From Campylobacterales bacterium (GTDB lineage Bacteria; Campylobacterota; Campylobacteria; Campylobacterales; QNZT01), in contig JALVVN010000041.1 of NCBI GenBank assembly GCA_027023405.1, positions 8,483 to 66,303 on the forward strand: a stretch of DNA of 57,821 bases, written 5' to 3'. How positions within the stretch are numbered: position 1 is the first letter of the stretch; every line of letters begins with the position of its first letter. The notes beneath the pieces are model-generated. The model searched no databases and was not told the origin of the DNA. It was given only the letters and a program-made list of their open reading frames with translations. Position numbers and translations under genes: made by a program. Below are positions 1-33,496 of this stretch, piece by piece.

Positions 1-102
1 CTCACACTAAAGCGCACCAAAGAGCGTGGCAAACCCAAATGCAACTGTAAACACTTAAATCACCGAAAAACCGGTATCGCTCCTCCGCAACTCTCCTATT
101 AA
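1..102 (+). CDS. possible 3' end of an unidentified CDS
   Basis: Reading frame 1 is open from the window edge through 33 codons to a TAA at 100-102. The translated tail is basic with a Cys-x-Cys and His/Lys-rich stretch (KCNCKHLNH). I do not recognise a family. The stop codon lies at the very edge of the palindromic repeat arm, as would be expected if the repeat sits just behind a gene. 33 open codons is weak evidence by itself, so this may be a chance frame. Confidence 0.2.
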   Translation, partial: LTLKRTKERGKPKCNCKHLNHRKTGIAPPQLSY

Positions 103-269
103 CCCAAAATTTGCATTAGCCTGCACATCATCTGCATTAATCATCGGCGACATGGGCGATTGAAGTAAAGCCTCGACGAACCCTACGGGTGCGCCTGCGT
201 TTTACTTCAACACCCCTGCACACCGAGCATCAACGCATCTGATGTACCTTCTAATGCAAAATTTGGGTT
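101..269. repeat. long palindromic intergenic element (MITE-like)
   Basis: The outer arms 101-119 and 251-269 are perfect 19-bp inverted repeats (AACCCAAAATTTGCATTAG and its complement). Further in, 160-169 and 201-210 form a second perfect 10-bp inverted pair, with GGGCGA/CACCCC next to them. A small ACCC-TAC-GGGT hairpin sits at the centre (180-190). Between outer and inner arms, CACATCATCTGCATT and CATCTGATGTACC also pair imperfectly. Almost the whole ~170 nt can therefore fold into one long interrupted hairpin. It has no coding capacity. A 24-nt near-copy of the right arm recurs at 33155-33178. It looks like a dispersed palindromic repeat or a non-autonomous mobile element; no clear target-site duplication is visible. 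Confidence 0.7.
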
Positions 270-329: not shown

Positions 330-2594
330 ATGTCAAAAAATTATGTGATCGGCTTTCCGAGAATCGGAGAGAAGAGAGAGTTGAAGTTTGCCCTAGAGGA
401 TTTTTGGGCTAAGAGAAGTGATTTTAGTGAAGTTGAAAAAGTCGCCAAAATGTTAAAAAAGCGCCATTGGGAGTATCAGAGAGAAGCGGGAATCGATCAT
501 ATCAGTTCCAACGACTTCTCCTACTATGACAATATGCTCGATACGGCGGTGATGCTAGGGGCGATTCCTACACGCTTTCAAGATATCGAAGATCCGACTG
601 CACAATATTTTGCAATGGCTCGCGGAGATGAGAAGCGAACGGCGATGAGTATGACCAAGTGGCTCAATACCAACTACCACTATATCGTGCCGGAACTAAG
701 TCTAAGCGATAACTATGGGCTTAACCTGACCAAGATCACCGATGAGTACAATGAAGCAAAAGCACAGGGGCTCAAAACCAAGATCAACTTGATTGGACCT
801 ATCACCTTTTTGGCACTCTCTCGACGCGTCGATAGCGGTGATACCTTTGAGCTATTTGATAAAATCCTTCCACTCTACAAGGAGGCACTGGAGAAGATCG
901 CCTCACTTGATAGTGATATCATCGTACAATTCGATGAGCCGATCTTTGTGAAAGATGTCAGCACAAAAGAGCTCTCACTACTCAAAAGAGCTTACGATCA
1001 ACTTGGAAGTGTAGAGGGTATAAAGATCGCCGTTGTGACCTATTTTAATAGTGCCAATGAGGCGACCAAAGTGCTGGCAAATACATCTGTTTGGGCGATC
1101 GGTCTTGATCTGATTTACGGGGAGTTGGATGAGGGAGCAACGCAGGCAGTTGCACAGAGTGGAAAAGTCTTAATCGCGGGAATTGTAGATGGGCGCAATA
1201 TCTGGATCAATGATATCGATGAGAGCCTCAAAAAACTCCATAGCTTGGGATTGCCAAAAGAGCAGATCATCGTCTCTAGCTCCTGCTCACTTCTGCATCT
1301 CCCTTTCACACTCAAATATGAGGAGAAGCTCTCGACGGAAATCAAATCGTGGCTCAGTTTCGCGCTTGAAAAGCTTGATGAACTCTCCTTGATCTCTACG
1401 CTCTTTTTTGAGACAGAAGCGGAACTGGATCAGCAAAAACAGACGCAACTCACACAAAATCGCCAAGCGATCTCAACACGAAAGAACTCAACCCTCATTC
1501 ACAAAGAGGAGATCAAGCAGAGAGTCGCCAATCTTACAGAGAGTGCATTGGGAAGATCGACCCCCTTTGAGGAGCGTATCAAAAAGCAAAAAGCCACACT
1601 CAAACTGCCGACACTACCGACAACAACAATCGGTTCATTTCCCCAAACCACAGAGCTTCGATCGGCTCGAAAAGCGTTCAAGCAGGGCGAGATCGACACA
1701 AACGCCTATGAGCAGGTGATGAAAAACTACATCGATGAGTGTGTCGCCTTTCAAGAAGAGATCGATCTCGATGTATTGGTACACGGTGAGCCGGAGCGAA
1801 ACGATATGGTGGAGTATTTTGGAGAGATGCTGGAGGGGTTTGCCTTTACCCAAAACGGATGGGTACAGAGCTATGGAAGCCGATGCGTCAAACCGCCACT
1901 CATCTATGCCGATGTCTCACGCCCCAAACCGATGACGCTCGATTGGATCACCTATGCGCAGAGCAAAACTGATCGCATTATGAAGGGTATGCTCACCGGT
2001 CCCGTCACAATTCTCAACTGGTCTTTTGTGCGCGACGATCAACCCCGAAGCCTCACGGCAAAGCAGATTGCCCTTGCTATCGCCGATGAGATCGACGATC
2101 TCCAAAAAGCGGGCATCAAGATCATCCAAGTCGATGAAGCGGCGTTCAAAGAGGGGTATCCACTCAAAAAGGATCAGGCGAGTGAGTATGAGCAGTGGGC
2201 GGTAGAGAGCTTCAAGATTGCCACGGCAGTCGCCGATGATGAGACGCAGATCCATACCCATATGTGCTACAGCGATTTCAACGACATCATCCGAACGATC
2301 GAGGCGATGGATGCCGATGTGATCTCTATCGAAACGGCACGAAGCGGAAACCGACTGCTGAAAATCTTCAAAGATCACGGCTACAAGCAAGAGGTAGGCC
2401 CCGGCGTGTATGACATCCACTCTCCAAGAGTACCAAGCCAAGAGGAGATCGAAAAGCAGATAGCCCTTCTCCTTGAGGTACTCCCCAAAGAGCAGCTCTG
2501 GATCAACCCCGACTGCGGACTCAAAACCCGAAAATGGGAAGAGGTCAAACCAAGCCTTGAACATATGGTCAAAGCGACGAAGAAGTTTCGCTAA
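330..2594 (+). CDS. metE: cobalamin-independent methionine synthase MetE
   Basis: MetE (5-methyltetrahydropteroyltriglutamate-homocysteine methyltransferase) makes the last step of methionine synthesis in the cytoplasm without B12. The 754 aa length is the usual full size: two fused TIM-barrel halves with the N-terminal YVIGFPRIG motif and the C-terminal half starting near IGSFPQT (about residue 430). The catalytic zinc ligands can be placed at His644 and Cys646 (HMC), Glu668 (SIETARSG) and Cys729 (NPDCGL). The ATG start has an AAAAGGA ribosome site upstream. It is a single-gene unit: a palindromic repeat lies upstream and a hairpin terminator follows. I see no recognisable methionine or SAM riboswitch in the leader. 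Confidence 0.98.
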   Translation: MSKNYVIGFPRIGEKRELKFALEDFWAKRSDFSEVEKVAKMLKKRHWEYQREAGIDHISSNDFSYYDNMLDTAVMLGAIPTRFQDIEDPTAQYFAMARGDEKRTAMSMTKWLNTNYHYIVPELSLSDNYGLNLTKITDEYNEAKAQGLKTKINLIGPITFLALSRRVDSGDTFELFDKILPLYKEALEKIASLDSDIIVQFDEPIFVKDVSTKELSLLKRAYDQLGSVEGIKIAVVTYFNSANEATKVLANTSVWAIGLDLIYGELDEGATQAVAQSGKVLIAGIVDGRNIWINDIDESLKKLHSLGLPKEQIIVSSSCSLLHLPFTLKYEEKLSTEIKSWLSFALEKLDELSLISTLFFETEAELDQQKQTQLTQNRQAISTRKNSTLIHKEEIKQRVANLTESALGRSTPFEERIKKQKATLKLPTLPTTTIGSFPQTTELRSARKAFKQGEIDTNAYEQVMKNYIDECVAFQEEIDLDVLVHGEPERNDMVEYFGEMLEGFAFTQNGWVQSYGSRCVKPPLIYADVSRPKPMTLDWITYAQSKTDRIMKGMLTGPVTILNWSFVRDDQPRSLTAKQIALAIADEIDDLQKAGIKIIQVDEAAFKEGYPLKKDQASEYEQWAVESFKIATAVADDETQIHTHMCYSDFNDIIRTIEAMDADVISIETARSGNRLLKIFKDHGYKQEVGPGVYDIHSPRVPSQEEIEKQIALLLEVLPKEQLWINPDCGLKTRKWEEVKPSLEHMVKATKKFR

Positions 2595-2663: not shown

Positions 2664-2669
2664 ATCTCC

Positions 2670-3000
2670 GGCATAGCGGGTGATTGCTACATGTGTAGAG
2701 GAAAGTCCGGGCTGCAATAAGAGAGGATTCCATCTAACGGATGGCCGGGGAGGCTTGTTGAGCTTCTCTGAGGGCTAGTGCAACAGAGAGTAGGTAGCTA
2801 TCTTCGGATAGTGATAGTGAAAGGGTGAGGTAAGAGCTCACCGGCTCTTTGAGTAATCTTAGAGGCCAGGTAAACCCAATCCGCAGCAAGAGGCGTATGG
2901 TAAAACTCTTATATTTTTGCGTCTCGCTTGAGAGCTATTGTAAAATAGCTCCTAGATAAATAGTCACCCACGACAGAACCCGGCTTACAGCTATGCCACC
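2670..3000 (+). ncRNA. rnpB: RNase P RNA (catalytic subunit)
   Basis: The sequence carries the conserved core of bacterial type A RNase P RNA: GAGGAAAGTCCGGGCT near the 5' end (CR-I), AGAGGCCAGGTAAACCC in the middle, and ACAGAACCCGGCTTACAGC near the 3' end (CR-V). The termini pair as helix P1: GGCATAGC at 2670-2677 with GCTATGCC at 2990-2997. RNase P removes 5' leaders from tRNA precursors. The gene has its own TATAAT and is followed directly by the rpiB promoter, so there is almost no spacer. The exact 3' end may differ by a few bases. Confidence 0.97.
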
Positions 3001-3015
3001 CTAAGTTATTTCAGT

Positions 3016-7773: not shown

Positions 7774-8870
7774 TGGGACTTAGTGTCGGAATCGTCGGTT
7801 TGCCCAATGTCGGTAAATCCACTACTTTTAACGCACTCACCAAAGCGCAAAATGCCGAATCGGCAAACTACCCCTTTTGCACGATCGAACCCAATAAGGC
7901 GGTGGTACCTGTGCCCGATGAGAGGCTAGGTGAACTCGCCAAGATCGTCAATCCGGAACGGATTCAATACTCTGTCATCGATTTTGTCGATATTGCAGGA
8001 TTGGTTAAGGGAGCAAGTAAGGGCGAGGGGCTTGGCAATAAGTTTCTCTCCAATATTCGCGAAGTTGAAGTGATCTTGCATATGGTGCGATGCTTTGACG
8101 ATGGAAATATTACCCATGTGGAGGGGGAGATCGATCCGATTCGAGACATTGAGATTATCGAAGGAGAGCTGATCTTGGCAGACTTAGAGCAGTTGGAGAA
8201 AAAGATTGAAAAACTCACCCGAGAGGCAAAGAGCCAAAAAGATGCACGCGCAAAGCTAGAAATTGCGCAAGCACTCAAAGCGCATTTGGATGATCTTCAA
8301 CCGGTCTCTACTTTTGAAAATCGCAATGAAGATTTTGAAGAGCTCAACAAAGAGCTTCGATTTCTCTCAAACAAAGAGGTTATCTATGGTGCAAATACCG
8401 ATGAGGATGGATTGCTTGAGGATAATGAATATGTCCGGTCGCTCAAAGAGTATGCCCAAAAGCAAAATCGAGAAGTGATTAAACTCTGTGCAAAAGTGGA
8501 AGAGGAGCTTGTCGCACTCGATGAAGAGGAAGCTAAAGAGTTCTTGGAGTCATTGGGTGTCAATGAAAGCGGATTAGAAAAGATCATCAAAACCGCTTTT
8601 GCAAAACTCAATCTCATCTCTTATTTTACAGCCGGTGTCAAAGAGGTTCGCTCATGGACCATTACCAAAGGTTGGCTTGCGCCCAAAGCGGCAAGTGTGA
8701 TACATAACGATTTTGAAAAGGGATTTATTCGAGCGGAGGTGATTGCCTATGATGATTTTATACAATATAAAGGTGAAAATGGCGCTAAAGAAGCGGGGAA
8801 AATGAGATTAGAAGGAAAAGATTACGAAGTACAAGATGGAGATGTCATGCACTTTCGATTTAATGTGTAA
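7773..8870 (+). CDS. ychF: ribosome-binding ATPase YchF
   Basis: YchF is a universally conserved P-loop protein (Obg/HflX class) that prefers ATP to GTP and associates with ribosomes. Its 365 aa hold Walker [10 protein letters not shown] (about 9-17), the G2/switch region [12 protein letters not shown]3 [14 protein letters not shown], a central coiled-coil insertion ([18 protein letters not shown]) and a C-terminal TGS domain ending [13 protein letters not shown]. It is the last gene of the operon, translationally coupled to pepA, and a hairpin follows its stop. Confidence 0.97.
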
Positions 8871-33062: not shown

Positions 33063-33496
33063 ACCTTTATATCGGAAGAATGGAGGGTGACTTTAGGATA
33101 AGATTTGAGTATCTCTTTCTCTACAAAATTGTCAGAGACTTAGAAGGTACCTACTTAAACCCAAAATTTGCCTTAGAAATTAACAATCTTTAGCAAATCA
33201 TTTGGCTATGGGTATTTACAGGAAATTAAGGTTTAATTAACAAACACTTTGTTTGTTATTGCCAAATATGACAATTAACACACATTTTATGCGTCAATCA
33301 ACAAACTTCTGAGACAACAACTATTTTAAACTTGAAATTATTTTAATTCTCTACTGTAATAATTTAAATTTACAAATAGTTGCATCTTGGACATTATTAT
33401 TGTGCATTTTTTGTGTGTAATAATGATTGGTTTGGCGGGGTGTTTTAGATATAATGTGTATTAATAACTAGTTAAACTAAAATTTTAGGCAAGTCA
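33063..33496. other. AT-rich intergenic region at the edge of the accessory patch
   Basis: No credible gene is seen in 434 nt. It holds the repeat arm at 33155-33178, a perfect hairpin AACAAACA-CTT-TGTTTGTT (33239-33257), a 10-bp palindrome TAACTAGTTA (33465-33474), and a TATAAT at 33450-33455 that could serve the 107-aa ORF. Base composition is much lower in GC than the flanking subtilase and deaminase genes. The mixture of short palindromes and a repeat arm suggests past insertion and decay. Confidence 0.55.
33155..33178 (+). repeat. second copy of the palindromic-element arm
   Basis: The 24 nt starting TTAAACCCAAAATTTGC match the reverse complement of the right arm of the 101-269 element and its flank with one mismatch (A to C at position 18). 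Only one arm is present here. GAAGGTAC, which adjoins the arm in the first element, also occurs at 33143-33150 but on the other side, suggesting a rearranged or partial copy. Confidence 0.55.

Follow-up and report, generated by a model that had tools for sequence, protein, structure and literature searches.

A long hairpin in front of metE in a Campylobacterales genome raises the question of whether such a structure is a mobile element, an extragenic palindromic repeat or a local regulatory RNA. The window, that is, the whole stretch of 57,821 nucleotides that was analyzed, carries the hairpin between an upstream reading frame and metE (330–2594, plus strand), which encodes cobalamin-independent methionine synthase and lies outside the element. 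The original prediction gave the hairpin a span of 169 bp (101–269). It is indeed located there, and the element proper covers 165 bp (103–267); AA at 101–102 and TT at 268–269 are part of a flanking duplication and fall outside it. Based on the sequence and on the duplication statistics of 103 elements, the left copy of this 5-bp target duplication is ATTAA (98–102; consensus TTNAA) and the right copy is TTTAA (268–272). The upstream frame, as read from the sequence, ends with TAA at 100–102, so the left duplication contains its stop codon.

The element consists of 17-bp terminal inverted repeats, an irregular stem and a triloop tip. The left terminal repeat (CCCAAAATTTGCATTAG, 103–119, plus strand) and the right one (CCCAAATTTTGCATTAG, 251–267, minus strand), both also recovered in end searches, pair at 16 of 17 positions. 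The outer arms had been described as perfect over 19 bp, and this does not hold: 101–119 (AACCCAAAATTTGCATTAG) and 251–269 (AACCCAAATTTTGCATTAG) match at 18 of 19 positions. At the apical part (160–210, minus strand, from sequence and fold), the inner arms (160–169 and 201–210) form a perfect 10-bp match and the central mini-hairpin ACCC-TAC-GGGT sits at 180–190, both as predicted. No listed open reading frame of at least 60 aa overlaps 103–267, again in agreement with the prediction. The 165-bp length, the missing coding capacity and the 17-bp repeats fall within the usual description of a miniature inverted-repeat element (MITE; 70–300 bp, no coding capacity, terminal inverted repeats of 15–30 bp).

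Folding shows that the structure goes far beyond chance. As RNA, the minus strand reaches −91.5 kcal/mol, against a shuffle mean of −46.8 (sd 4.0, z −11.1), and none of 200 dinucleotide shuffles folds as well; the plus strand folded as DNA gives z −5.1. The well-folding strand of the 103–267 element is the minus strand, both by fold energy and by the score of R1, a model built from the window's own sequence type (182.3 bits on the minus strand vs 84.8 on the plus strand).

The window begins directly after an N run, and the contig stretch left of this run ends with the same letters as window 1–127, indicating that the assembly broke inside the metE hairpin and left the overlap unmerged (G000:C41 around 8383–8482, L005). 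An apparent second copy at G000:C41:8350 was rejected, as it lies left of the N run, repeats window 1–127 and represents the unresolved assembly overlap. Downstream of metE we notice a bacterial class A RNase P RNA (2668–3003, 233.5 bits), and at the gathering score RNase P gave the only Rfam matches over the window.

Is the hairpin mobile? The predicted recurrence of its arm within the window is found at 33158–33176 with one mismatch, where it forms the left end of a truncated relative of sequence type B (33160–33219, plus strand, from end search and sequence; left half only, its end approximate and set by eye). Across the genome itself, with three mismatches allowed, 16 occurrences of the 19-bp end are counted, compared with one for a reversed control. 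A 62-bp short element with perfect ends is also present there (G000:C2:56377–56438), and two of the genome's own elements have another repeat, TCTAGGGTTTTTAGAGGT, next to them (L007 ~1420, L009 ~1700). Flanking duplications, likewise anticipated, are seen at the family level: 60 of 103 non-redundant pairs of terminal repeats, every pair being counted, have an identical 5-mer on both sides, against a mean of 19.5 and a maximum of 32 for shuffled partners. TTNAA accounts for 54 of these 60. The middle base of the duplication agrees in 86 of the 103 pairs vs 38.0 expected, and bases further out agree in 21–31. The window copy itself agrees at four of five bases (ATTAA vs TTTAA).

Scanned for exact matches to the end, public genome contigs yielded at least 116 stretches. 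Among the matches listed, record titles name Campylobacterota, Elusimicrobia, Omnitrophica, Spartobacteria, Saprospiraceae, Calditrichota, Actinomycetota and others; these records are mostly metagenome-assembled genomes (MAGs), so single ones may be misbinned. The family is found in Elusimicrobiota, Omnitrophota and other phyla, and within its own phylum it is patchy, TTN plus the end (up to one mismatch) being present in 5 of 397 sampled genomes, all of high quality. Paired ends fall into a main length class of ~158–170 bp, a second class of ~243–252 bp and short forms. Long spans between terminal repeats in L142, L144 and L146 enclose ordinary genes and no transposase, and were set aside as chance pairings. 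In plasmid and phage collections 103–267 had no match; in IMG/VR the 17-mer end is present on 12 contigs (L258–L269).

The ends also lead to a transposase family. In a Bacteroidetes MAG (L122), an insertion sequence of 1.4 kb is delimited by the same ends and encodes a transposase of 444 aa, which scores 205.7 bits against the IS1380 model NF033539 (cut-off 180) and also matches PF13701. This insertion is flanked by TTTAA on both sides, and its in-silico removal together with one TTTAA restores an open frame of 492 aa. A second Bacteroidetes MAG (L178) has both ends, with three and one mismatches. A weaker case in Spartobacteria (L176) has ends with one and four mismatches, the four being at the right end, and G093, from the window's own order, carries a broken IS1380 with related ends. 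IS1380 exceeds the cut-off in 6 of 35 genomes that carry the end or are close kin of carriers. Among the other loci over the cut-off, L174 lacks matching ends, and L175 and L177 show no clean end pair.

A transposase with the same terminal repeats, which the prediction had proposed to look for, is found in other phyla and is missing from the genome itself. No IS1380 transposase was detected in the window's genome (G000), in G001 or in G002, nor, except for the broken copies in G093, in nine further relatives; a resident active transposase is not required of a MITE. Because of this absence, mobilization by IS1380 is something we infer for this genome from the likeness of the ends. We suggest that an IS1380-type transposase, now gone from the genome, would have bound the ends (CCCAAAWTTTGCATTAG) in trans and moved the element, leaving the TTNAA duplication. 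With many copies elsewhere, conserved ends, a target duplication and full IS1380 elements with matching ends, the first branch of the original prediction, a non-autonomous transposable element, is borne out, and the mobility of this MITE is well supported.

We then consider what lies between the ends. Elements of 150–175 bp sort into sequence types A (that of the window), B, C, E (Elusimicrobia) and others. Alignment A1 contains 26 of the 28 type-A sequences, aligned with MAFFT on sequence only, with L119 and L160 omitted for internal deletions. In type A, double changes that keep pairing occur in 27 of 61 pairs vs 14.5 in shuffled alignments, and none of 500 shuffles has as many, where double changes are counted per sequence rather than per event and the shuffle test does not model ancestry. 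Double-change cells number 104 vs 24.9 in shuffles, and 97.3 % of cells pair. When the structure is slid by one to three columns, at most seven double-change pairs remain. Type B shows double changes in 8 of 68 pairs (n = 14 sequences), and type E together with L096:4665–4826, which has other ends, in 20 of 59 (n = 9); in alignment A3, L153 was left out and L096:4665–4826 added. Although only type A went into the model R1, it detects types B, C and E as well, at full length, and the types keep compensatory changes and loops though sharing little interior sequence.

The unpaired columns of A1 are better conserved than the paired ones (mean entropy 0.35 vs 0.54, Mann-Whitney p 0.008, uncorrected for relatedness). 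Two internal loops stand out, both on the minus strand. The 5' half of a tandem GA/GA loop lies at 238–239 (G 26/26, A 25/26) and its 3' half at 131–132 (G 26/26, A 26/26). A GC/UG loop has its 5' half at 227–228 (G 26/26, C 25/26) and its 3' half at 142–143 (U 26/26, G 23/26). On visual inspection, type C again has the GA/GA loop, and the GC/UG loop is seen again in type B and in the G039 and G053 copies with different flanking helices. The elements match no Rfam family at E 0.1 (8 loci) or E 1 (9 loci); chance-type matches came from plant microRNA precursor models on other long hairpins of L096 and, at other positions of the loci, from tRNA, microRNA and sub-threshold HPnc0260 models. The comparisons give good support to the view that the interior would be an irregular hairpin of ~80 bp on one strand and under selection.

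Long palindromes undergo quasipalindrome correction, which offers the most serious alternative: a plain MITE with an unselected fold, whose complementarity is kept by template switching between the arms. Such correction would yield double changes, also after the insertion at metE. It should at the same time erase mismatches, but those of the GA/GA and GC/UG loops persist in nearly all 26 copies. Nor can it tell the strands apart, and yet one strand retains G-U in preference to A-C. In A1, the consensus pairs hold 225 G-U vs 17 A-C cells (pair columns with any, 31:17), and in A2 126 vs 8 (23:8). An arm-to-arm alignment without folding, read on the better-folding strand, gives G-T:A-C counts of 218:68 for type A (n = 27), 104:8 for type B (n = 14) and 27:3 for type C (n = 5); type E (n = 9), at 16:11, shows little wobble bias and is a weak case. 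Choosing the strand by energy inflates single cases, but the copies of any one type all align in the same direction. Divergent types moreover have the same structured strand, since for 12 of 12 tested non-A elements of 150–175 bp the strand that R1 picks is the one with the better energy, in L053 by a trivial margin. Neither blind decay nor arm-to-arm copying should favor one strand, so the bias counts against both, and we consider an unselected fold unlikely. The hairpin is, on present comparisons, probably an IS1380-group MITE that carries a strand-specific, RNA-like fold, a feature that the original prediction did not contain.

How might this strand act? We compared 71 distinct elements of 150–260 bp with their neighboring genes. 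The structured strand is sense in 14 cases and antisense in 14 between tandem genes; 15 elements lie between divergent and 11 between convergent genes, 10 lack a flank and 7 are inside a predicted frame. There is no preferred orientation to genes. The strand bias is thus not explained by effects on neighboring mRNAs and belongs to the element. Because copies lie in either orientation, the structured strand would act in the element's own spread, as RNA or, less likely, as single-stranded DNA. The fold may be transcribed and function as an RNA, as the paired changes on one strand suggest.

The DNA version holds that the structured strand, exposed for example in replication, is a folded single-stranded substrate that joins the ends for transposition. 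The strand-specific fold and the random orientation to genes speak for it, and tandem GA mismatches are stable in DNA too. Against it, the plus strand folded as DNA is still structured, the minus-strand figure having been obtained with RNA parameters, and G-T pairs are weaker in DNA. Moreover, use of double-stranded ends is expected of DDE transposases with 5-bp duplications, as established for such families. We regard a DNA substrate as decidedly unlikely, and RNA remains the preferred form of the fold.

The metE copy has a history of its own. In G001, a congener whose MetE is 70 % identical, a type-A element lies on the same strand ~60 bp before metE, and here too it immediately follows the TAA that ends the upstream gene. 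In G003–G006, which represent four other genera, metE is present together with what looks by eye like the same sort of upstream gene, and there is no hairpin, so that these genomes of the family provide empty sites. Since the element is common to the two congeners and absent from these four, the insertion predates the split of the two species. The metE copy is an old insertion, which entered the genus in its ancestor at the point where the upstream gene has its stop codon. The two hairpins are identical at 116 of 165 positions. Among 65 scored pairs, 43 are unchanged, 7 have one-sided changes that keep pairing, 13 have double changes that keep it and 2 are broken; 20 of 22 changed pairs still pair. 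The strand difference is retained (−87.4 vs −54.0), and among the G001 copies examined the metE copy alone has the ends TTCGTATTAG, changed in both arms. This pattern points either to use of the metE copy or to ongoing arm-to-arm correction, and the fixed loops favor use.

That two congeners share the element's place, distance and strand and have retained the fold would also suit a leader or attenuator of metE. The original prediction had named the lack of other copies, with presence at the same locus in all relatives, as the mark of such a local RNA, and the outcome is mixed: copies exist elsewhere, but the metE copy also occupies the same locus in the congener. Relative to metE and the upstream gene, the better-folding strand is the antisense one. 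Homologues occur next to many different, unrelated genes and in either orientation, four other genera have metE without the element, and no Rfam family matches. A local regulatory RNA is hence a quite improbable account of the hairpin; the inserted MITE may nevertheless also act locally, e.g. as an insulating or RNA-processing hairpin between two genes. The second branch of the original prediction, a REP/BIME repeat spread by RAYT, can be dismissed as extremely improbable: like the hairpin, these are extragenic palindromes in many copies, but they are described as 20–40 bp units tied to tyrosine (RAYT) transposases (PMC3733652), with a GTAG/CGTC tag and without terminal repeats of this kind, and, judged on its 165-bp unit and long ends, its 5-bp duplication and its DDE-transposase partner IS1380, the element differs from them.

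Several copies combine a known interior with differing ends: L206 (G045) has other ends around a type-A interior, L210, L212 and L218 (G053) have the ends CCCGGATTTTGCATTAG, L096:4665–4826 has CCCAAACAATTCAGTTGG around a type-E-like interior, and L207 (G039) also differs. These copies are the ground for a more far-reaching reading. We tentatively speculate, as a possibility rather than an expectation, that this is a selfish hairpin RNA in a DNA transposon, in which spread of the element by IS1380-type transposases would depend on its strand-specific RNA, the fixed loops would bind protein, and the fold would be the inherited core while the ends change with the transposase at hand.

Other forms were also noticed. 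Elements of ~245 bp (L256, L257, L071, L214) have an extra tip module, GGAGAAGCG..AGCTTCG, and further hairpins; in L214 the stem of this module is altered by matching changes and its insertion point is another one, so it may be a small nested mobile unit. In G001, L252, L253 and L254 are 63-bp forms with the ends and first helix only, as if the middle had been cleanly deleted, and such forms occur in several genomes. The Elusimicrobia MAG of L096 also has a ~170-bp hairpin with unrelated ends (TATATAGTTCATGCTG.., L096:3000–3172), possibly another long-hairpin element family.

Compared with known systems, the element has ends identical or nearly so to the IS1380 elements of L122 and L178; unlike IS1380, it has no transposase gene, and its interior is a hairpin of near-constant length. 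Its ends begin with CCC inside TTNAA, which resembles piggyBac, the eukaryotic relative of IS1380, where CCC lies inside TTAA. The literature places IS1380 as the outgroup of piggyBac and also gives TTAA (PMC10813416). The MITE bcr1 of the Bacillus cereus group, described as 147–167 bp long (PMC2267715) and transcribed within UTRs (PMC3446304), has a similar size and a conserved fold. By description, bcr1 differs in being confined to one Bacillus group, whereas the present family extends across phyla and can be paired with an IS family. For ERIC and YPAL of enterobacteria and NEMIS/Correia of Neisseria, the RNA is described as folding into a long hairpin that affects neighboring mRNAs (PMC3733652, PMC2267715). 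These are likewise short mobile repeats with terminal repeats; in contrast, the present family has covarying paired bases and fixed loops in several sequence types. The ends and target duplications of ERIC, YPAL and NEMIS/Correia differ from those of the metE element. As known MITEs, bcr1, ERIC and NEMIS belong to the same class as the metE element. No description of an IS1380 MITE with TTNAA was found in the literature searched, and, as far as we found there, the IS1380/TTNAA link and deep covariation with fixed loops across types have not been described.

Our findings tie an orphan repeat to the transposase family IS1380 and to a TTNAA target, with one copy long kept at a core metabolic gene, metE. 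MITEs are usually seen as decayed leftovers, with the hairpin as a by-product of their ends. The covariation, the fixed loops and the one-strand wobble across types and phyla point instead to a function of the fold itself, and raise the testable question of whether a gene-less DNA transposon needs its own RNA to spread.
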